Source of the DNA: Powellomyces hirtus
Taxonomy: Eukaryota > Chytridiomycota > Chytridiomycetes > Spizellomycetales > Powellomycetaceae
Length of the DNA stretch: 64,000 nucleotides
Direction: 5' to 3'
NCBI GenBank assembly: GCA_025526995.1
Contig: JAHLKG010000022.1
Coordinates: 124,001-188,000, forward strand
Below the pieces are notes generated by a model. That model ran no database searches and was not told where the DNA came from. It was given only the letters and a program-made list of their open reading frames with translations. The position numbers and the translations under genes are program-made. Each line of letters starts with the position of its first letter. Positions within the stretch are counted from its first letter, which is position 1. Positions 9,529-64,000 of this stretch are shown one piece after another.

Positions 9529-11183
9529 ATGGGTATCTCCGGTGAGTAGTTCCACAACCACCGCACCGTCACAACCCATCTTTTCCTGACGTCCCCACTT
9601 TTATTTTCTCGTTCCAGGCCTTACCAAAGTAATAGGCGACCACGCCCCGCACGCCATTAAAGAAAGCGACATCAAAAACTATTTCGGGCGCAAAGTCGCC
9701 ATCGACGCATCCATGTCCATCTACCAATTCCTCATCGCGGTCCGACAACAGGACGGAATGCAATTGACAAATGAGGCTGGGGAGACGACGAGTCATTTGA
9801 TGGGGATTTTTTATCGTACGATTCGGATGGTGGAGAATGGGATCAAACCGGTGTATGTGTTTGATGGGAAGCCGCCGGCTTTGAAGGCGGATGAGGTATG
9901 GTTGTGAGGTGTGAGAGGTGCTGAGAGAGAGGTGGAGACTAATTTGTGAAATGTGGTTTTTTTTTTAGCTTACGAAACGGTTGGAGAAACGAACGGAGGC
10001 GCAGGCGGGATTGGATGCGGCAACGGAAGCAGGTACGAGTAAAACATAATCTTCGAATGAAATATGGGATGTTGATAATGGTGGGGTTTGACAGGCGACA
10101 CGGAGAACATTGACAAATTCAGTCGCCGAACCGTCAAAGTCACAAAAGAACACAACATGGAATGCCGCAAACTGCTGAAACTCATGGGGATACCCTACAT
10201 CGAGGTGTATTTCTTTATCTTTATCCATTTTTGCCGCGCACACGGGTCAAGTCAAATCTGATGCTTATAATGTCTATGACCTACCCACACAGGCGCCCTC
10301 CGAAGCCGAATCCCAATGCGCCGCCCTCGCGCGGGCCGGAAAAGTATACGCCGCCGGGTCCGAAGACATGGACACTCTAACCTTCGGCACCCCCATCCTC
10401 CTCCGTCACCTCACCTTCAGCGAAGCGCGCAAGATGCCGATCGCCGAGATCCATCTCGACAAGGCACTTGAAGGTCTGGGAATGACGATGAACCAATTCA
10501 TTGATCTCTGTATCCTCCTCGGCTGCGACTACTGTGACTCCATCCGCGGGATTGGCCCGCACAGAGCTGTCGCGCTTATGAAGGAGCATGGCACGTTGGA
10601 GAAGGTGCTGGCGAGTTTGGATCCGAAAAAGTATCCCGTGCCGGAGACGTGGGAGTATAAACAGGCGAGGGAGCTGTTTAGGAAGCCGGATGTGATTGAC
10701 CCGGAAACGATAGATGTGAGTGGTGGGGCAAATGGGCTTCTGATCGCAATTATTCCGAGGCTGATCTCCCTTTTTATGTACAGTTGAACTGGGAACAACC
10801 CGACGAGGAGGGGATTGTGGAGTTCATGGTTCGAGAGAAGAACTTCAAGTAGGTCTTCATGGCTCTCCTTTTGTCATCCAGCGATAGGAGACTGATCCCC
10901 GTCTTTCTCCCTCCTACAGCGAAGAGCGAGTGCGGAATTCGGTGCAAAAACTCTCGAAGCTACTCAAGCAGGGCACGCAGGGGCGTCTGGATAGCTTCTT
11001 TTCCGTTAAACCCAAAGACCCGAGCGCGGTCAAATCGACATTGGGAAAACGAAAGGTAATGGAGCACATCTTTACCACTTGGTATTGTGATTCAGTGCTC
11101 ATTTGGAATTGTAGGCTGATGATAAGAAGAAAGCTGCCCCTGCCGCCAAAAAGAAGAGTGCCCCAGGCAGACCGCGGCGGTAA
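9529..11183 (+). CDS. FEN1: Flap endonuclease 1
   Basis: A structure-specific 5'-flap endonuclease for Okazaki fragment maturation and long-patch repair (RAD27 in yeast). Eight exons: 9529-9541, 9618-9895, 9969-10032, 10095-10204, 10293-10715, 10784-10848, 10920-11055, 11115-11183; 385 aa. The first exon encodes only MGIS plus one base, and the join restores [14 protein letters not shown]. Metal-binding residues are visible: Asp in DASMSIYQF and VFDGKPP, Glu in [10 protein letters not shown], Asp in GSEDMDTL, Asp in LGCDYCDS followed by the helix-two-turn-helix [12 protein letters not shown]-terminal PCNA-interacting box QGRLDSFF is followed by a basic tail. PCNA itself lies about 37 kb downstream in this window. 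The assignment is very secure. Confidence 0.95.
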
Positions 11184-18268: not shown

Positions 18269-20808
18269 TTACATGGGCAGGACGGGCCCCCGAGGGGCAA
18301 CGGGCCAGTCCGCGCTCTCAGCCTCCGTTCTGATCCGGTTCGCCTCCTCATTCGCGAGTACAGTGCTGTTATGCACTGGATCCGCACTTCTCTTGTTGAC
18401 GCCATCAAAAGATCTCGAGCTTACGAACCACGCTGCCTTGAGAGCTCTCGCCACATCCGCCTCCTTTTTAGTAGCGTCCCACTGTGACACCCAAGTGAGG
18501 GCTGTCAACATCGCATCGCTCATGTCATCCTTCTTCTTGGCGTCGAGAAAACCCTGTTTCAACTGTGTTGGGCAATTGACTTGATTAGAGGTAAGCAGGC
18601 CCCTGACTACCCTGACCGCAGTGATTTTCTTTCGTCGCGGAATCGCAGGAGTGACCTCGTCGCCTAGAGTTCTCCTGATTTTCTTCGTTTTCTGATCTTG
18701 CAGATTCCACTTGTGCGAGACAGATTGGGGCGACATGACTACGGTAGACCCTTCCCGTCGATCATTGAGCATCGCCAACAACATGCCTTCCACCATCCGC
18801 GAGGCCAATATCTGAGGCGGTATCGATAGTTTTCCATGAACGACACGCCACGACTGTCGTTCAATGATGTACAGGCTTGCGCTGGGTTTTAAGAGGCGTT
18901 CATCCAGTACCCTTTTGCATTCCCGAGCCATCGTGGACAGATCATTGTTATCTGCATTCAAACCCAGAACCCCCCAGTCCAAGATAGTCGGCGTAGTTTC
19001 GTGGTGAATATCATTTTGCGTTGGCAGCTCAACATGCACGAATCCAATGTTCTGCATCCCGCAGTCAATTGCCACAATAGATTTTGGGCGTGACGCGTTT
19101 GCAAATTCTAGAATGCGCTTTTGTATTCGTTCTAGAACTTCGCTTTTGTTCCCCTTCGGCGTCAAGCCAAGCAGGCGAGCTTTGTCGGCTAGTTGCGTTG
19201 CGTTCAAGGTGTGAATATCTGCTGCTTCCTCATTATCCTTATGTTTGGTTGGCAGGACCTCCACAGAGACTTTGGAGTCCCGTAAATACTGCTGGATCCT
19301 TTCAAGAACTTTCGTTTTGGTTCCATTCCAAGGCAAGCCAAGCGAGCGGGCCTTCTCAGCCAGCTGACTTTTATTCATGTGAAGGTTGATTATTTCCTCC
19401 TGGTCATTCACAACAGCTATTTCTTCGTCTTTGTCCGAGTTTTCTTTCGTGAATCCTTTGGACTCCCGTAAATACTGCTGGATCCTTTCAAGAACCTTCG
19501 TTTTGGTTCCACTCCAAGGCAAGCCAAGCGAGCGGGCCTCCTCAGCCAGCTGACTTTTATTCATGTGAAGGTCGATTATTTCCTCCTGGGCATTCACAAC
19601 AGCTATTTCTTCGTTTTTGTCCGAGTTTTCTTTCTTAAATCCTTTGGACTCTAAGACCAATTGGCGTGGCAGTGTTCCTGCATCCCTTCGGTCAACCATC
19701 TCTGACTGTGTTGCGTCAACCGGGTCCTTTACTCCTTGACTGGTTACAGAGACGGTGATAGTTTTCAAGACCCTCATTTGCGCCCAAACGTCAGAAGAGT
19801 TCCTGAATGATTTATGAGCCTGCTGCGCCAGGTTCGATTTGGTCCCCGCGATCGGCAAGCCGACTATAGAAGCGCACGTCTCTACTTCGGCCCTGTCCAG
19901 ATTCCGCAAGCTGATGTCGCATTCAAGCACATAAAGGACAGGAGAATAAACGGATGGCAAGATTGCTGAGTATACATCCAAGAAAGCGATGGACACAAGT
20001 AGCGGCGAGTGCTGAGTTGCGCGTGGCCCTACCCGGTCTGCGTCACTCGCTTTGTGCTTTGAGCCTGGCAGACGTATCGATGAATTCGCACAACGCAAGA
20101 CATCTTGCTGTCGCCGGAATTTAGCGGCAAATCGAGGAGTTTGAGAATTTCATGCAGTTTCGTGATATCTGTATCTAAGAGACTAGATGGACTTAAGAGT
20201 CAGCATCGCCTCCATCTTGAAAGATGCGAATTTGAGATTAAGCACCTATGGAGAGCGGGTAGCGGAACACGGCAGATATGGCCCTTCATCTCCTGTTCTA
20301 GTACCGGCGCTTTACTGAATAGCCTTTGCGCAACTCGTGACGCCAGTTCCGTTGCTGGTTCTTTGGCATGTTTTGTAACATGATAAAAGCGAGCCTGAGC
20401 AAGGAGTTCCGCCGGTGACATGGAAGACAGTCTGCGAGGGCAAGCGTGAGGATACAACTCCAAGGTGCGTTCGCTCTTCCAAAGAGCGAGAGCCACCAAA
20501 CCTAAATGTGGAGTCCGCACGCCTACACACCTTTCGACCAGAAGATTGACTTCCTCACTACTCCATGAAGCGTGTTCCTCTTTCGACTCCTTTTGTGATA
20601 CTATTGCCCTTGCCTGTGTAGTTTCTCCTCTTCTGCTTTCGCAAGAAAAGCGTGCTGATCTTTGTGTGAGATCTAGAGTTCCGCGCTGGACCGCTGCTCG
20701 GCAAGCTATAAAGCCCCGACCGAATGGAATGCATCGCTGAGCATCTAACTGATGAAATCTCAGTATCGAGAACCCTTTACTCCGGACATATAATGCCATT
20801 CGGTCCAT
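18269..20808 (-). CDS. CCE1: Mitochondrial Holliday-junction resolvase (Cce1/Ydc2 family) with an array of SAP domains
   Basis: Cce1/Ydc2 resolves four-way junctions in mitochondrial DNA. The model has three exons (complement): 20246-20808, 20074-20182, 18269-20011; about 804 aa. The Arg-rich start (MDRMALYVRSKGFSILRFHQ) fits mitochondrial import. Four SAP helix-extension-helix modules lie at about residues 259-291, 372-404, 434-466 and 491-523. A fifth is split across the short middle exon (KLHEILKLLDLPLNSGDSK), and a degenerate one may sit near residue 160. The RNase H-like core starts near 535: Asp540 in IVAIDCGMQNIG, Glu608 in YIIERQSW, Asp719/720/723 in KKKDDMSDAM. Known family members have one SAP. 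Modules three and four come from a 186-bp tandem duplication. The two 5' introns (63 and 62 nt) are inferred; otherwise 20200-20808 would be a separate gene. Confidence 0.82.
19271..19642. repeat. Two tandem 186-bp units inside the resolvase gene
   Basis: Units 19271-19456 and 19457-19642 align over their whole length with about nine differences (roughly 95% identity). Each encodes 62 residues: one SAP domain plus an acidic linker. The length is a multiple of three, so the duplication kept the frame. Confidence 0.9.
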
Positions 20809-20908: not shown

Positions 20909-21990
20909 ATGACAAGCTCAGCTGAAACGCCAGATGCTCCTCGCAATGTTGCGCTGAAGTCATTCTTATCCGGAGGGTGTGGGGGAATAACAATGGTAGG
21001 ACTTGGCGACGTTTTACTTGTAGACTGCAAGTTCAATTGAACGTCTTGTGTGACTAGGTCGGAGTTTCGCACCCTTTCGACCTCACGAAAGTCCTTATGC
21101 AAACTGGGGATATTCACAATAAACCAACACTCCAAGTGATGCGGAGTATCTTGGCACAAAATGGCATGCGTGGCCTTTACAAGGGCGTTTGGCCTGTGAT
21201 GGGAGCAGCACCAGTATGTCAAAGCTCCCAACGTTATTGGTTATAGGCTCTCACCTCCTTTTCTGTAGCCTGTGTTGGCCACATGCATGTGGTCATATCA
21301 TGTAGGACAAGTTCTGATTCGAGATGCGATGGGAGGACCCGGGCGGCCGCTACTACAGAAACCCAACGCGGACCTGATTGACACGCTGACCATAACGCAA
21401 ATCGGAATCGCTGGTGCGTTTTCCGCAGTCCCGACGGCGCTGATTCTGGGGCCAGCGGAGCAGGTCAAAATCCGATTGCAAGTAGCTCGAGCAAGGACTA
21501 CGGCTGTGGGAGAACTCAGACAGATTTGGAAAGAGGGAGGTGTCCGAGGGGTTTTCCGAGGGACGGGGTTGACCTTGATGAGAGATGTACCTGGCAGTTT
21601 CTTCTACTTTGCCACGTATGAAACCATCAAAAGAGCTTTGACGGAAGGTATTGATGCGAAACTGAATCCCGCCACTGTTCTGCTTTCTGGAGGGATGGCT
21701 GGGATGGTCAACTGGACGGTAGCGATACCAATAGGTAAGCGCCCAGGTTCACTTGTTATCCGTCAACAAATACTGATGATTATGCAAACGCAGATACTGT
21801 CAAGTCTCGATTCCAATCGAGTGGTGCTTCAGGATCACTTGGCGCGTGTTTCCGTCAAATTCTCGCCGAGGGAGGCATTCCTGCGTTGTTTAGAGGCCTT
21901 GGCCCGACACTCATTCGAGCGTTCCCAGCCAGCGCGGCATTTTTTGGGGGCGTTGAGGGCAGCAAGGTTGTTCTGAATAAGTTACTCTGA
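20909..21990 (+). CDS. Mitochondrial carrier family (SLC25) transporter, carnitine/ornithine carrier-like
   Basis: Inner-membrane solute carrier. Four exons: 20909-20995, 21058-21213, 21269-21734, 21794-21990; 301 aa, the normal family length. Three repeats are visible with the signature PxD/ExxKxR(L/M)Q: HPFDLTKVLMQ, GPAEQVKIRLQ and IPIDTVKSRFQ, each followed by a glycine-rich GLYKG-type turn. The PAEQVK form in repeat two recalls carriers of the carnitine/acylcarnitine and ornithine group, but the substrate cannot be fixed from this alone. The start is 100 bp from the divergent resolvase start, so the two mitochondrial genes may share a promoter. Confidence 0.88.
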
Positions 21991-23466: not shown

Positions 23467-24112
23467 TCACTCTGAAGTTGGATCTACCAGTATCTCCGAA
23501 GTCGCTTCTGCCGGTTTGTCTAGACTGGCTTGCGTGGGCACATCGGACGCTGGTTCAGCAGTCTTCGTCGGCCCTGTTTCCCAGGGCTTTTTCCTTGGAT
23601 TCAGATTACTTGTACTTGGGGCAGCTTCGTTCAGCTTGTTTGGTATTTGCTTTATGCCGGGCACTTGCTCTCCTCTTGCGACCATTTCACAAATCTCCTG
23701 AAAACTACGTGGATATTGCGCCTCGTCCCTGCCACTTCCATTCACAACTGTGTCTGCTGTGTCAGAATCCAGCGCAATGCCTGACTTCAGCTCCGAATGA
23801 CGGGCAGGATCAGTTTGCAATGTTTTCCAGCTATTGTACGACTCCGGCTTGATGGGCTTTACAAATCTGTTGAAGTAGTTAGAAGGGAAATCTGCGCCCC
23901 GGACGCAGGTAACTGCTCGCTTACTTGGAGAAGTAGAAGAACTTGGCTTTCTGCAAGGCGGCTTCTTTGTCGGCGATGTTGCCATCCTTGTCGGTCGGTG
24001 CTGTGGCGAGAATGCTTTTGAGTCCTTCCTGAAACCGTTTATCGGTTGTCCATGGATATTCCGAGAACTGCTTGAACGCAGCCTCATCTTCAAGAGTGAA
24101 AATGCTGGCCAT
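23467..24112 (-). CDS. PEX39-like peroxisomal import factor (YJR012C/C6orf226 type)
   Basis: Two exons (complement): 23925-24112 and 23467-23866; 195 aa. The middle region holds SFQEICEMVARGEQVPGIKQ, followed by IPNKLNE and then NPRKKPWE. That order (a helix, a PGI-x-x-IP motif and a KPWE box) is the signature of the small fungal and animal proteins recently named Pex39, which help the PTS2 receptor Pex7 in matrix import. The N-terminal exon contains YPWTTDKRFQEGLKSIL, absent from what I know of the yeast protein, so it may be a lineage extension. The C-terminal 45 residues are low complexity. The start is 158 bp from the divergent AspRS gene. Confidence 0.7.
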
Positions 24113-24270
24113 GGCAACTGTGAACTTGCTTGAGAAGGTTTGTAAAACCCAGCTCAAAATGACAGCGGGAATGGTTTTGGAAGACCTGTCAAATCGCAGT
24201 TGACGACAGACGCGTTCCGCTTTCGACTCTTGTTCCTTCACCCCTTCGGGAAAAACAGCTTATTCCTCCG

Positions 24271-61072: not shown

Positions 61073-61486
61073 TTTGTCGACAAACAAAGGACTATGGATG
61101 TTGAGGTAAAAGTTGACAGGAATCAGAACGGGGAGGTAATCTTTATAGATGTGGATTCAAGTTACAGAGATCACAAATGCACGAAAAAAGTAACGAGGAA
61201 AATTCGTAAAAGTCTCCAAGTCTTTCCGTGACGTGGGATAGAGGTGACCTAGATGTAGCATGCTGCGCGTTCCTCATCTGCTCCCGGCGAAAGAAAGCGA
61301 GTTTTGCAGTCAGTTCCGATTCTTCCACCCAGGACCAAGCCAATTTGCAGAATCGGCAATTTTCCATTCAACGCATGGAGAGGGTTGTTGGACTCGACAT
61401 CACTCGGTAGTCATACCCCCCTTTCACCCCCCCACTCTGCCGCTTTCCTCCGGCACTTATACCCTCGAGTATGCTGGCGACAGTCA
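61073..61486. other. Divergent promoter region
   Basis: 414 bp between the NPL4 and PPR starts. Contains a C-rich run around 61417-61436. No gene seen. Confidence 0.5.
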
Positions 61487-64000
61487 ATGTCGCGACATCT
61501 ATTCCTTGCCTTATCGAAAGCCTGGCATCCCGCCAATCGCGGCTCTTTCTATAGCTCCGCCGCTGAACGCCCGGCGCACATCACCACCCTCAAACGTCAG
61601 TGTCACAGGCGAAAGGAGAACTTGTTTGTCTGCTCAGAATGTACTTCTGGTCGGATTTCCGCGGCCGCCGCCGCTGCGAATCGGACTTCTTCAGCGGCCG
61701 CTGTCGCAGATCGCGTCAAGAGGGTTCCTATGCGCCGCTCTCAGGTCAGGCACTACTCGACGCCGAAACTCGGCGGTCCGCATGAGGTTGTTGCAGGTTA
61801 CCAGGAGAAAGCTGCCGGAACTGTTGACGCAACAGCGACATTTAGCATGCCCCTCGAAACACCAGCAGCCATCGACGCAGCATGGAACATGTTTCTACGG
61901 CTCAAGGACACGCCGCATCAAAGTGACCCGATAGAGGGGGAAATTCGCCATATATTCAATGTGCTGGCGTCTGGTTTACGCACTGGGAAATCTGCGGAAA
62001 AGCTCAGATCGGTTGCTCTCTATATGAAGCGGAGCGGGTTTTCATTGGCATTAAAGGAAGCAGAGCACCTGATCATCGCGCAGCGGATCCTGAGAAATTG
62101 GTCCGAATTGCTCACGGAATACCGATCTCTTCGCTACTTGGCGAAGAACGATGCTGCTTTCCTCAATTGCAGCTCCGAAGTGTATGAATGCGTCGTTGCT
62201 GCCCTGTTAGAACTTGGTAACCACGACGCAGCACGCGCTATGCTCGTCGAACTGGAGCAAAACAGTAGCCTTCCGACTGTACGGATGTTTATCAATCTTT
62301 TCCGAAGTGCGTTGAGTCGGAATGATATGGTCGCCCTGGAGGAGCTTTATCAAAGTCTTGTCCGGCAAGGCATACCACTCAATATAAGATGCTTCGCCAT
62401 CCTCATGACAGCGTGGAAAGATGATAAGGGCCGGATCGAAGAACTACTCCAATCGGCTCAGCATTCCAACCTGGGTGATTTCGAAGCCGATATTGAGTAC
62501 CAAGAAGCGGCGATAGCAGCTTCGTGTCGAGCTGGTTTCCTGGAACATGCGTACGATCAATTGACGCGATTTCGTCACAAACATCCCAAATCAGAGTCAC
62601 AGCAGAACTTCCTCTATGCGGCGATGATCAGAGAGCACCTCCACCGGACAAAGGACCCCCAGCAGGCATTGAACACGGCCGAGAGCCTATTTGCAGAAAT
62701 GATGAGGCTTGGCATAGCGCCCACTGTGAGGACGTACACCGTCTTGATGCACGGTTACTTCAAACACAGATCCCTCAATAAAGTGCTAGAAACCTACGAG
62801 GCGATGGTCAAATCAGGTTTGGAAGCGGATTCCACAGTCTTCAATGTTATTCTCCGAGCGTGCGTGCTACATGGAGATCTCGCGAAGATGGAGGAAGTCT
62901 TCTCTCGACTGCTTGAAACCGGCCTGGAACCGAGCCTGCACATATTAACGAGCGTAATGGCGGGATTTGCATGGCACGGGAGAGTAGACGAGGCTGTCAC
63001 GATTTTTGAGCAGCGCATCAAGGAGAATAGTTTAGAACCTGACGTCGCGTGCTACAACGTGCTGATTCTCGGATTTGGACTGCGGGGAGACGTGAATGGA
63101 TGCATACAGTGGTGGAACAAGATGTTAGAACAGGGTTTATCGCCGGACAGGATAAGCTATACAAGCTTTATGGAAGCCCTCTCGAAATCGGGGGATACCC
63201 GTGTAGAATCAATGTACCAACGCGTTTTTACGACCGAAGTGGAACCCGACGAACGTTCATATGGGCTTCTGGTGAAAGATCGAATACGACGGGGCGAGCT
63301 TGACTCCGCTGTTCAGATCTGGACGGAGTTGCTAGCGAATGGGCTGAACATGGGGCCGACTTCCGTTGCAAATTTGATGGAAGCGTTTCAGGTCCAAGAC
63401 AACATTCCCTTCGCCCGGGATCTTCTGCGTCGCTTTGTGGATAAGGGAGGTGTCATAGATGTCCACGTTTACGGCGTCATGATGAATATGCTTCAAGCCT
63501 CCAGTCGACCGGATGAGATCATCAGAATGTGGCACGGAATGACACAACAGCGCGTGGAGCCAACCGAGAGGATATACCGGCATGTTATCAAAGCACACGT
63601 CGCTGAAAAGGATGCGGAAGGGCTGTGGGCAACGGTCGAAGATATGCGCAGCAGACTATTCGTTCCGCCCGTTAGACTTTGGGAGATAGTCATAAGTTTT
63701 CTGACTACTCTTCGCGGGGCTCCCAACGTTGACAGAGCATATCAATACATGCTGGAGGACAACGTGACACTGTCCGCTCTCTTACTTGACCGCCTGGTGG
63801 AAAGTCCTGTTGCAGAAGCGGATCCGGAGCTGGTGATTCACATCATGCGGCACTGTCTCCAGAAAGGCGAGAAGGCAATGGAAGATGTCAATGCGAGACG
63901 TTTCGTGTACAGATATTTTGTCAACTTGCACGACCAGCGTTATATGGCGGAACTGATTGGGTCCATCATCAAGTCGAGGAATCTCGCTGATCTGAGAGAC
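61487..64000 (+). CDS. Long pentatricopeptide-repeat protein, mitochondrial, 3' partial
   Basis: One open frame of 838 codons runs to the right edge with no stop. The start MSRHLFLALSKAWHPANRGS and the following FYSSAAERP look like a mitochondrial presequence with a cleavage site. An Ala-rich linker follows. From about residue 160 the sequence is alpha-helical with 35-residue PPR periodicity, for example VRTYTVLMHGYFKHRSLNKV, VFNVILRACVLHGDLAKMEE and VACYNVLILGFGLRGDVNGC. Such proteins bind mitochondrial RNA and control its processing or translation; the RNA target cannot be read with confidence. The length suggests a large fungal PPR factor of the Ppr/Aep3 kind, but the family member is unclear. 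A shorter start at 61730 is possible. Confidence 0.88.
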   Translation, partial: MSRHLFLALSKAWHPANRGSFYSSAAERPAHITTLKRQCHRRKENLFVCSECTSGRISAAAAAANRTSSAAAVADRVKRVPMRRSQVRHYSTPKLGGPHEVVAGYQEKAAGTVDATATFSMPLETPAAIDAAWNMFLRLKDTPHQSDPIEGEIRHIFNVLASGLRTGKSAEKLRSVALYMKRSGFSLALKEAEHLIIAQRILRNWSELLTEYRSLRYLAKNDAAFLNCSSEVYECVVAALLELGNHDAARAMLVELEQNSSLPTVRMFINLFRSALSRNDMVALEELYQSLVRQGIPLNIRCFAILMTAWKDDKGRIEELLQSAQHSNLGDFEADIEYQEAAIAASCRAGFLEHAYDQLTRFRHKHPKSESQQNFLYAAMIREHLHRTKDPQQALNTAESLFAEMMRLGIAPTVRTYTVLMHGYFKHRSLNKVLETYEAMVKSGLEADSTVFNVILRACVLHGDLAKMEEVFSRLLETGLEPSLHILTSVMAGFAWHGRVDEAVTIFEQRIKENSLEPDVACYNVLILGFGLRGDVNGCIQWWNKMLEQGLSPDRISYTSFMEALSKSGDTRVESMYQRVFTTEVEPDERSYGLLVKDRIRRGELDSAVQIWTELLANGLNMGPTSVANLMEAFQVQDNIPFARDLLRRFVDKGGVIDVHVYGVMMNMLQASSRPDEIIRMWHGMTQQRVEPTERIYRHVIKAHVAEKDAEGLWATVEDMRSRLFVPPVRLWEIVISFLTTLRGAPNVDRAYQYMLEDNVTLSALLLDRLVESPVAEADPELVIHIMRHCLQKGEKAMEDVNARRFVYRYFVNLHDQRYMAELIGSIIKSRNLADLRD

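Follow-up and report, generated by a model that had tools for sequence, protein, structure and literature searches.

We describe a gene of the chytrid Powellomyces hirtus (Spizellomycetales) that probably encodes a Holliday-junction resolvase of the Cce1/Ydc2 type carrying an array of SAP modules, a reading to which we assign a probability of about 0.72. The gene lies at 18269-20808 of a 64,000-nucleotide stretch of DNA (contig JAHLKG010000022.1, positions 124,001 to 188,000; hereafter the window), which belongs to an assembly of 29.26 Mb in 60 contigs. Coordinates refer to the window, and all features of the gene are on its minus strand. The frame at 18269-20011 shows identity over 94% of length to the deposited P. 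hirtus hypothetical protein DFJ77DRAFT_513965 (655 residues), referred to here as P0001. Judged from profile searches and structure prediction, a SAP array is present that consists of two firm modules, one module resembling that of Ydc2, one probable module and one unproven candidate.

The RuvC-like core of the Cce1/Ydc2 type occupies 18437..19078 and was assigned from a Pfam match, a structural match and its acidic residues. PF09159 (Ydc2-catalyt) matched P0001 with an E of 1.9e-14 and a score of 54.4 bits (cut-off 23), covering positions 1-187 of 258. The same family had one match in the assembly, and the resolvase gene is the sole Cce1-type gene detected there. When PDB was searched with a two-sequence profile (A1), the Schizosaccharomyces pombe Ydc2 structure 1kcf was found at an E of 9.3e-6, in an alignment spanning SAP and core together. 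Foldseek, queried with an AlphaFold model of the protein (mean predicted local distance difference test score, pLDDT, 63.9 and predicted template-modelling score 0.48 for the whole model), placed 1kcf_A and 1kcf_B at ranks 1 and 2 (E 3.2e-10), followed by TEFM and RuvC. With VIA-align, TEFM (18.9) and Ydc2 (18.2) were tied, followed by the Fowlpox resolvase (17.0) and Escherichia coli RuvC (16.4). An earlier reading of this DNA from its letters alone (the sequence-only reading) had placed the protein in the Cce1/Ydc2 family, and the match above the PF09159 cut-off and the RuvC-like fold matched to 1kcf bear this out.

That reading had also described the catalytic acidic set as intact, and all four counterparts of Ydc2 D46, E117, D226 and D230, which we take to be the catalytic positions, are indeed present. 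In the numbering of a 784-residue form of the protein discussed below, they are D520 (19064-19066), E588 (18860-18862), D699 (18527-18529) and D703 (18515-18517), respectively, and they are invariant in 9/9 aligned proteins, the P. hirtus protein included. With the full acidic set in place, the core has the appearance of an active nuclease rather than of a TEFM- or Mrs1-like protein. The gene could instead encode a catalytically silent relative with another mitochondrial role, as is the case for TEFM in transcription and Mrs1 in splicing, both of which have presumably lost the catalytic acidic set. We regard this as the least probable of the readings weighed here, given the retained residues. 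In addition, both sequence searches of PDB listed 1kcf, whereas TEFM was unlisted in either, and the N-terminal motif is a SAP, as in Ydc2, where the C-terminal domain of human TEFM (5ol8, 5ola) is described in excerpts of PMC9950373 as joining a pseudonuclease core to a helix-hairpin-helix motif. Mrs1, according to part of PMC2813881, no longer cleaves DNA.

SAP modules were sought with two Pfam families, SAP (PF02037; curated cut-off 23.9 bits) and SAP_new25 (PF18953). P0001 matched both over their curated cut-offs (SAP E 2.4e-14; SAP_new25 E 4.6e-17), with three stretches at a lenient E of 10; at 0.001, SAP_new25 retained two and SAP retained one. Module s1 (19466..19579) scored alone reached 29.4 bits with SAP_new25 and 26.1 bits with SAP, and the near-identical s2 (19280..19393) reached 27.7 and 24.0 bits, and thus each exceeds the curated cut-offs of both families by itself. 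Module s3 (19106..19219), which adjoins the core and is the positional counterpart of the Ydc2 SAP, fell below the cut-off when scored alone (SAP 18.3 bits, E 0.0018), as does the SAP of Ydc2 itself (20 bits, E 5.3e-4). In the alignment to 1kcf, s3 is paired with the Ydc2 SAP together with the core, so that a SAP directly precedes the core in both proteins. With a custom SAP profile built without the SAPs of the window, and with candidates scored as 60-residue pieces, s1, s2 and s3 scored 17.5, 11.5 and 12.8 bits, each value being reached by 0/5000 shuffles. The claim that more than one SAP module precedes the core is therefore upheld by s1 and s2; a profile search giving only one significant SAP match had been named as evidence against it, and two modules were significant alone instead. 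A six-frame scan of the whole genome gave 17 SAP matches at an E of 1 or better, seven of them over the curated cut-off; three fell inside the resolvase gene and the other 14 at separate places, these counts being lower bounds in which intron-split arrays could be missed.

Two further candidates, c4 (19805..19909) and e2 (20068..20181), were chosen by eye ahead of scoring. In Pfam searches neither e2 nor, even at an E of 10, c4 gave a match. With the first custom profile, the 60-residue pieces scored 5.8 bits for c4 (reached by 4/5000 shuffles) and 5.6 bits for e2 (10/5000), and with a second profile that includes s1 and s3 they scored 6.5 and 6.3 bits (3/5000 for each). Of the 387 windows taken as controls from other open frames, none reached 5.5 bits with the first profile (top 5.2); with the second, two did, the higher at 6.3 bits, which is the score of e2. 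Scanning the whole protein with the two profiles gave 1.3 and 1.7 bits for c4 and 0.5 and 1.3 bits for e2, values which exceed 95% of 2000 shuffles of residues 1-345 (95% at or below -0.6) yet fall under the best shuffles (4.6 and 4.2 bits). In the AlphaFold model, for which almost no aligned sequence was available in the c4 region, c4 was predicted to form helices at P0001 residues 107-111, 115-124 and 133-146, with block pLDDT values of 81, 82 and 90 over residues 111-140. Folded alone, it had a mean pLDDT of only 59.6, and Foldseek returned six rows, none significant, the first being a yeast SUMO-ligase SAP (E 3.7). We consider c4 a probable divergent SAP module, with a SAP-like predicted fold in the context of the whole protein. 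The confidence over e2 was 39-47. The sequence-only reading had counted at least four and probably five SAP modules; that count is not borne out in full, the tally here being two strong modules, one Ydc2-like module (s3), one probable module (c4) and an unproven fifth candidate (e2). A sixth candidate, e1 (20314-20427), was rejected: it scored -4.4 bits with the first profile, its scores with the two profiles were reached by 2949 and 3049 of 5000 shuffles, the sole Pfam matches were two sub-threshold ones to families other than SAP, and the AlphaFold blocks containing e1, like those containing e2, had a confidence of 50 or under.

Modules c4, s1, s2 and s3 and the core lie in a minus-strand frame (18269-20149) that is unbroken, with no stop between them, so two separate genes are not suggested for these parts. 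P0001 maps onto the window as an exon 1 beginning at M 20421, an exon 2 at 20033-20182 and an exon 3 at 18269-19910, the last holding c4, s1, s2, s3, the core and the stop codon; the start of c4 coincides with the exon 3 boundary. Intron 1 (20183..20245; 63 nucleotides, GT..AG) is common to the deposited model and to the exons of the sequence-only reading (20246-20808, 20074-20182 and 18269-20011), whose exon 2 and 3 limits are probably wrong by comparison with the deposited protein. Intron 2 of the deposited model (19911..20032; 122 nucleotides, GTAGGG..ATCAG) has GT..AG ends chosen among four equivalent joins. The alternative intron 2 at 20012-20073 begins with GTCTGC, a poor splice donor, and the frame that goes with it translates sequence intronic in the deposited model into a run of hydrophobic residues; for these two reasons it was set aside and the deposited intron preferred.

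The start codons also differ. Upstream of the deposited M 20421, the frame continues to an ATG at 20808, the first of the open frame, from which exon 1 would span 20246..20808 and the protein would have 784 residues. The deposited start of DFJ77DRAFT_513965 is thus internal to a longer open frame, 129 codons downstream of its first ATG, and the public model may be truncated at its N-terminus. Codon usage upstream of 20421 scored -0.055 per codon in frame 0, where the two alternative frames scored -0.290 and -0.242 and the 90th percentile of random windows was -0.043; it weakly favors the upstream N-terminus as coding and is not decisive.

The choice of start bears on the compartment in which the enzyme works. 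The resolvase could be nuclear, or present in both compartments, with the SAP array tethering it to chromatin, a reading that we hold to be improbable, only slightly less so than a silent relative. Many nuclear DNA-binding proteins carry SAP modules, and P0001 begins without a presequence evident by eye. The nuclear SLX4 family has a SAP as well, according to part of PMC2770170. On the other side, Cce1 and Ydc2 are presented as the mitochondrial junction resolvases of two yeasts in excerpts of PMC7078210 and PMC2770170, and a start at the upstream ATG, which is in frame, would give the protein an N-terminus that counts 12 Arg and Lys against 4 Asp and Glu over its first 60 residues. The protein has this Arg-rich segment only when made from the 20808 start, and the amphipathicity of the segment as a helix is unremarkable (reached by 1410/2000 shuffles). 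We favor a Cce1/Ydc2-type enzyme that would be imported into mitochondria.

Part of the array appears to be young. Two tandem units of 186 nucleotides, each consisting of one SAP and a linker, occupy 19456-19641 and 19270-19455 (span 19270..19641) and are 95% identical (177/186 nucleotides the same, 9 different). The differences fall in seven non-synonymous and two synonymous codons, giving a non-synonymous divergence (dN) of 0.049 and a synonymous divergence (dS) of 0.057. By this near-identity, s1 and s2 are the products of a recent tandem duplication, with no clear signal of selection either way, and because they are so similar the array is partly young and may be labile. Three segments of P0001 (152-221, 261-285 and 323-339) had pLDDT values under 50, and the stretches between modules are likely to be flexible linkers.

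These features suggest how the enzyme might work. As a dimer, like its yeast relatives, it would cut four-way junctions of mitochondrial DNA (mtDNA) with metal ions, and the SAP beside the core (s3) would steady the junction. For S. pombe Cce1, part of PMC2770170 states that stable binding to junctions requires its single SAP, and part of PMC4872236 reports a more prominent X arc of branched mtDNA in yeast without Cce1. The additional SAPs, on flexible linkers, would grip the junction arms or duplex close by, making binding tighter and longer-lived and leaving the chemistry unchanged. To this avidity part, taken alone, we give an even chance. The main competitor shares the identity of the enzyme, and hence overlaps the explanation that we favor, and denies the avidity part alone: the protein would be an ordinary mitochondrial resolvase in which s3 does the work and the extra SAPs are near-neutral by-products of tandem duplication. 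The dN and dS of the s1/s2 pair over 9/186 nucleotides carry no sign of constraint, as this would predict, and none of seven other relatives scanned (P0003-P0009) had more than one SAP match, in a set that holds no other named chytrid protein and from which the absence of multi-SAP proteins in chytrids cannot be inferred. Nine differences are, however, too few for measuring selection. Moreover, s3, c4 and the s1/s2 pair are by now far apart in sequence, the frame is still open, and c4 has a SAP-like predicted fold, which suggests retention. We therefore hold near-neutrality to be a tentative alternative, plausible and somewhat short of even odds.

The sequence-only reading had envisaged a scaffold-like or long-range junction-binding enzyme with relevance to mitochondrial nucleoids. 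A more ambitious form of the avidity model is that a multivalent dimer with about eight flexibly tethered SAPs binds several mtDNA duplexes simultaneously and couples resolution to the bridging or segregation of nucleoids, the length of the array changing quickly by tandem duplication. Such a role presupposes that separate duplexes are held by one molecule or one dimer, and we consider it unlikely, albeit a little less so than a nuclear resolvase.

Several other genes were recognized in the window. An open frame at 10179-10784 (+) has an XPG_I domain (E 7.8e-29) and a sub-threshold 5'-3' exonuclease match; this gene, for a structure-specific nuclease of the FEN1/EXO1/GEN1 type, is separated from the resolvase gene by about 8 kb. 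A mitochondrial carrier gene at 21269-21973 (+) (PF00153, E 2.3e-22) is on the opposite strand to the resolvase gene and oriented divergently to it, and at 23470-24153 (-) is a PEX14-like KPWE domain (E 1e-22). A pentatricopeptide-repeat (PPR) protein at 61259-64000 (+) reaches the end of the window (PPR_2 E 7.8e-40) and is possibly an organelle RNA factor.

Relatives were sought by searches that rely on shared 5-residue words, with the best 7995 candidates scored in the first search and the best 7996 in the third. The first protein search found the P. hirtus protein alone, the second added a metagenome protein (P0002), and the third gave eight proteins. Viral contigs scanned with profile A1 yielded no relative. 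Among the titles and opening abstract lines surveyed, a multi-SAP mitochondrial resolvase was not named. A natural protein with about four SAPs would offer a test of how the affinity and residence of a RuvC-type enzyme, and the junctions that it selects, depend on SAP number, and the array also lets one ask whether an organelle resolvase helps to organize the nucleoid. The protein would also single out SAP number as a feature of mtDNA maintenance that can change. Should the extra modules be neutral, it is a regular member of the family whose N-terminus has grown longer.

Compared with known systems, the closest protein found outside the species is P0002, which is 44-46% identical and has a core and a SAP tail at the same spacing; it is encoded on a 1284-base contig and starts mid-SAP, so its SAP number is not readable, and it has no Pfam SAP match. 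The Cce1-type proteins P0004-P0009, which include those of other yeasts, share with the chytrid protein the PF09159 match (E 3.1e-38 to 6.5e-59) and the invariant acidic residues, and differ from it in the array: at an E of 10 or better, one SAP stretch each was found in P0004-P0007, as in P0003, and none in P0008 and P0009. S. pombe Ydc2/SpCce1 (1kcf; P0003), which is 24% or 27% identical to the chytrid protein, has the same RuvC-like core, the acidic counterparts and one SAP N-terminal to the core at a similar spacing. Unlike Ydc2, with its 258 residues and one SAP match, the chytrid protein has 655 or 784 residues, two further SAPs and one probable SAP. It is probably a known enzyme type with a modest, testable twist, in which about four SAP modules stand where the yeast relatives have one.
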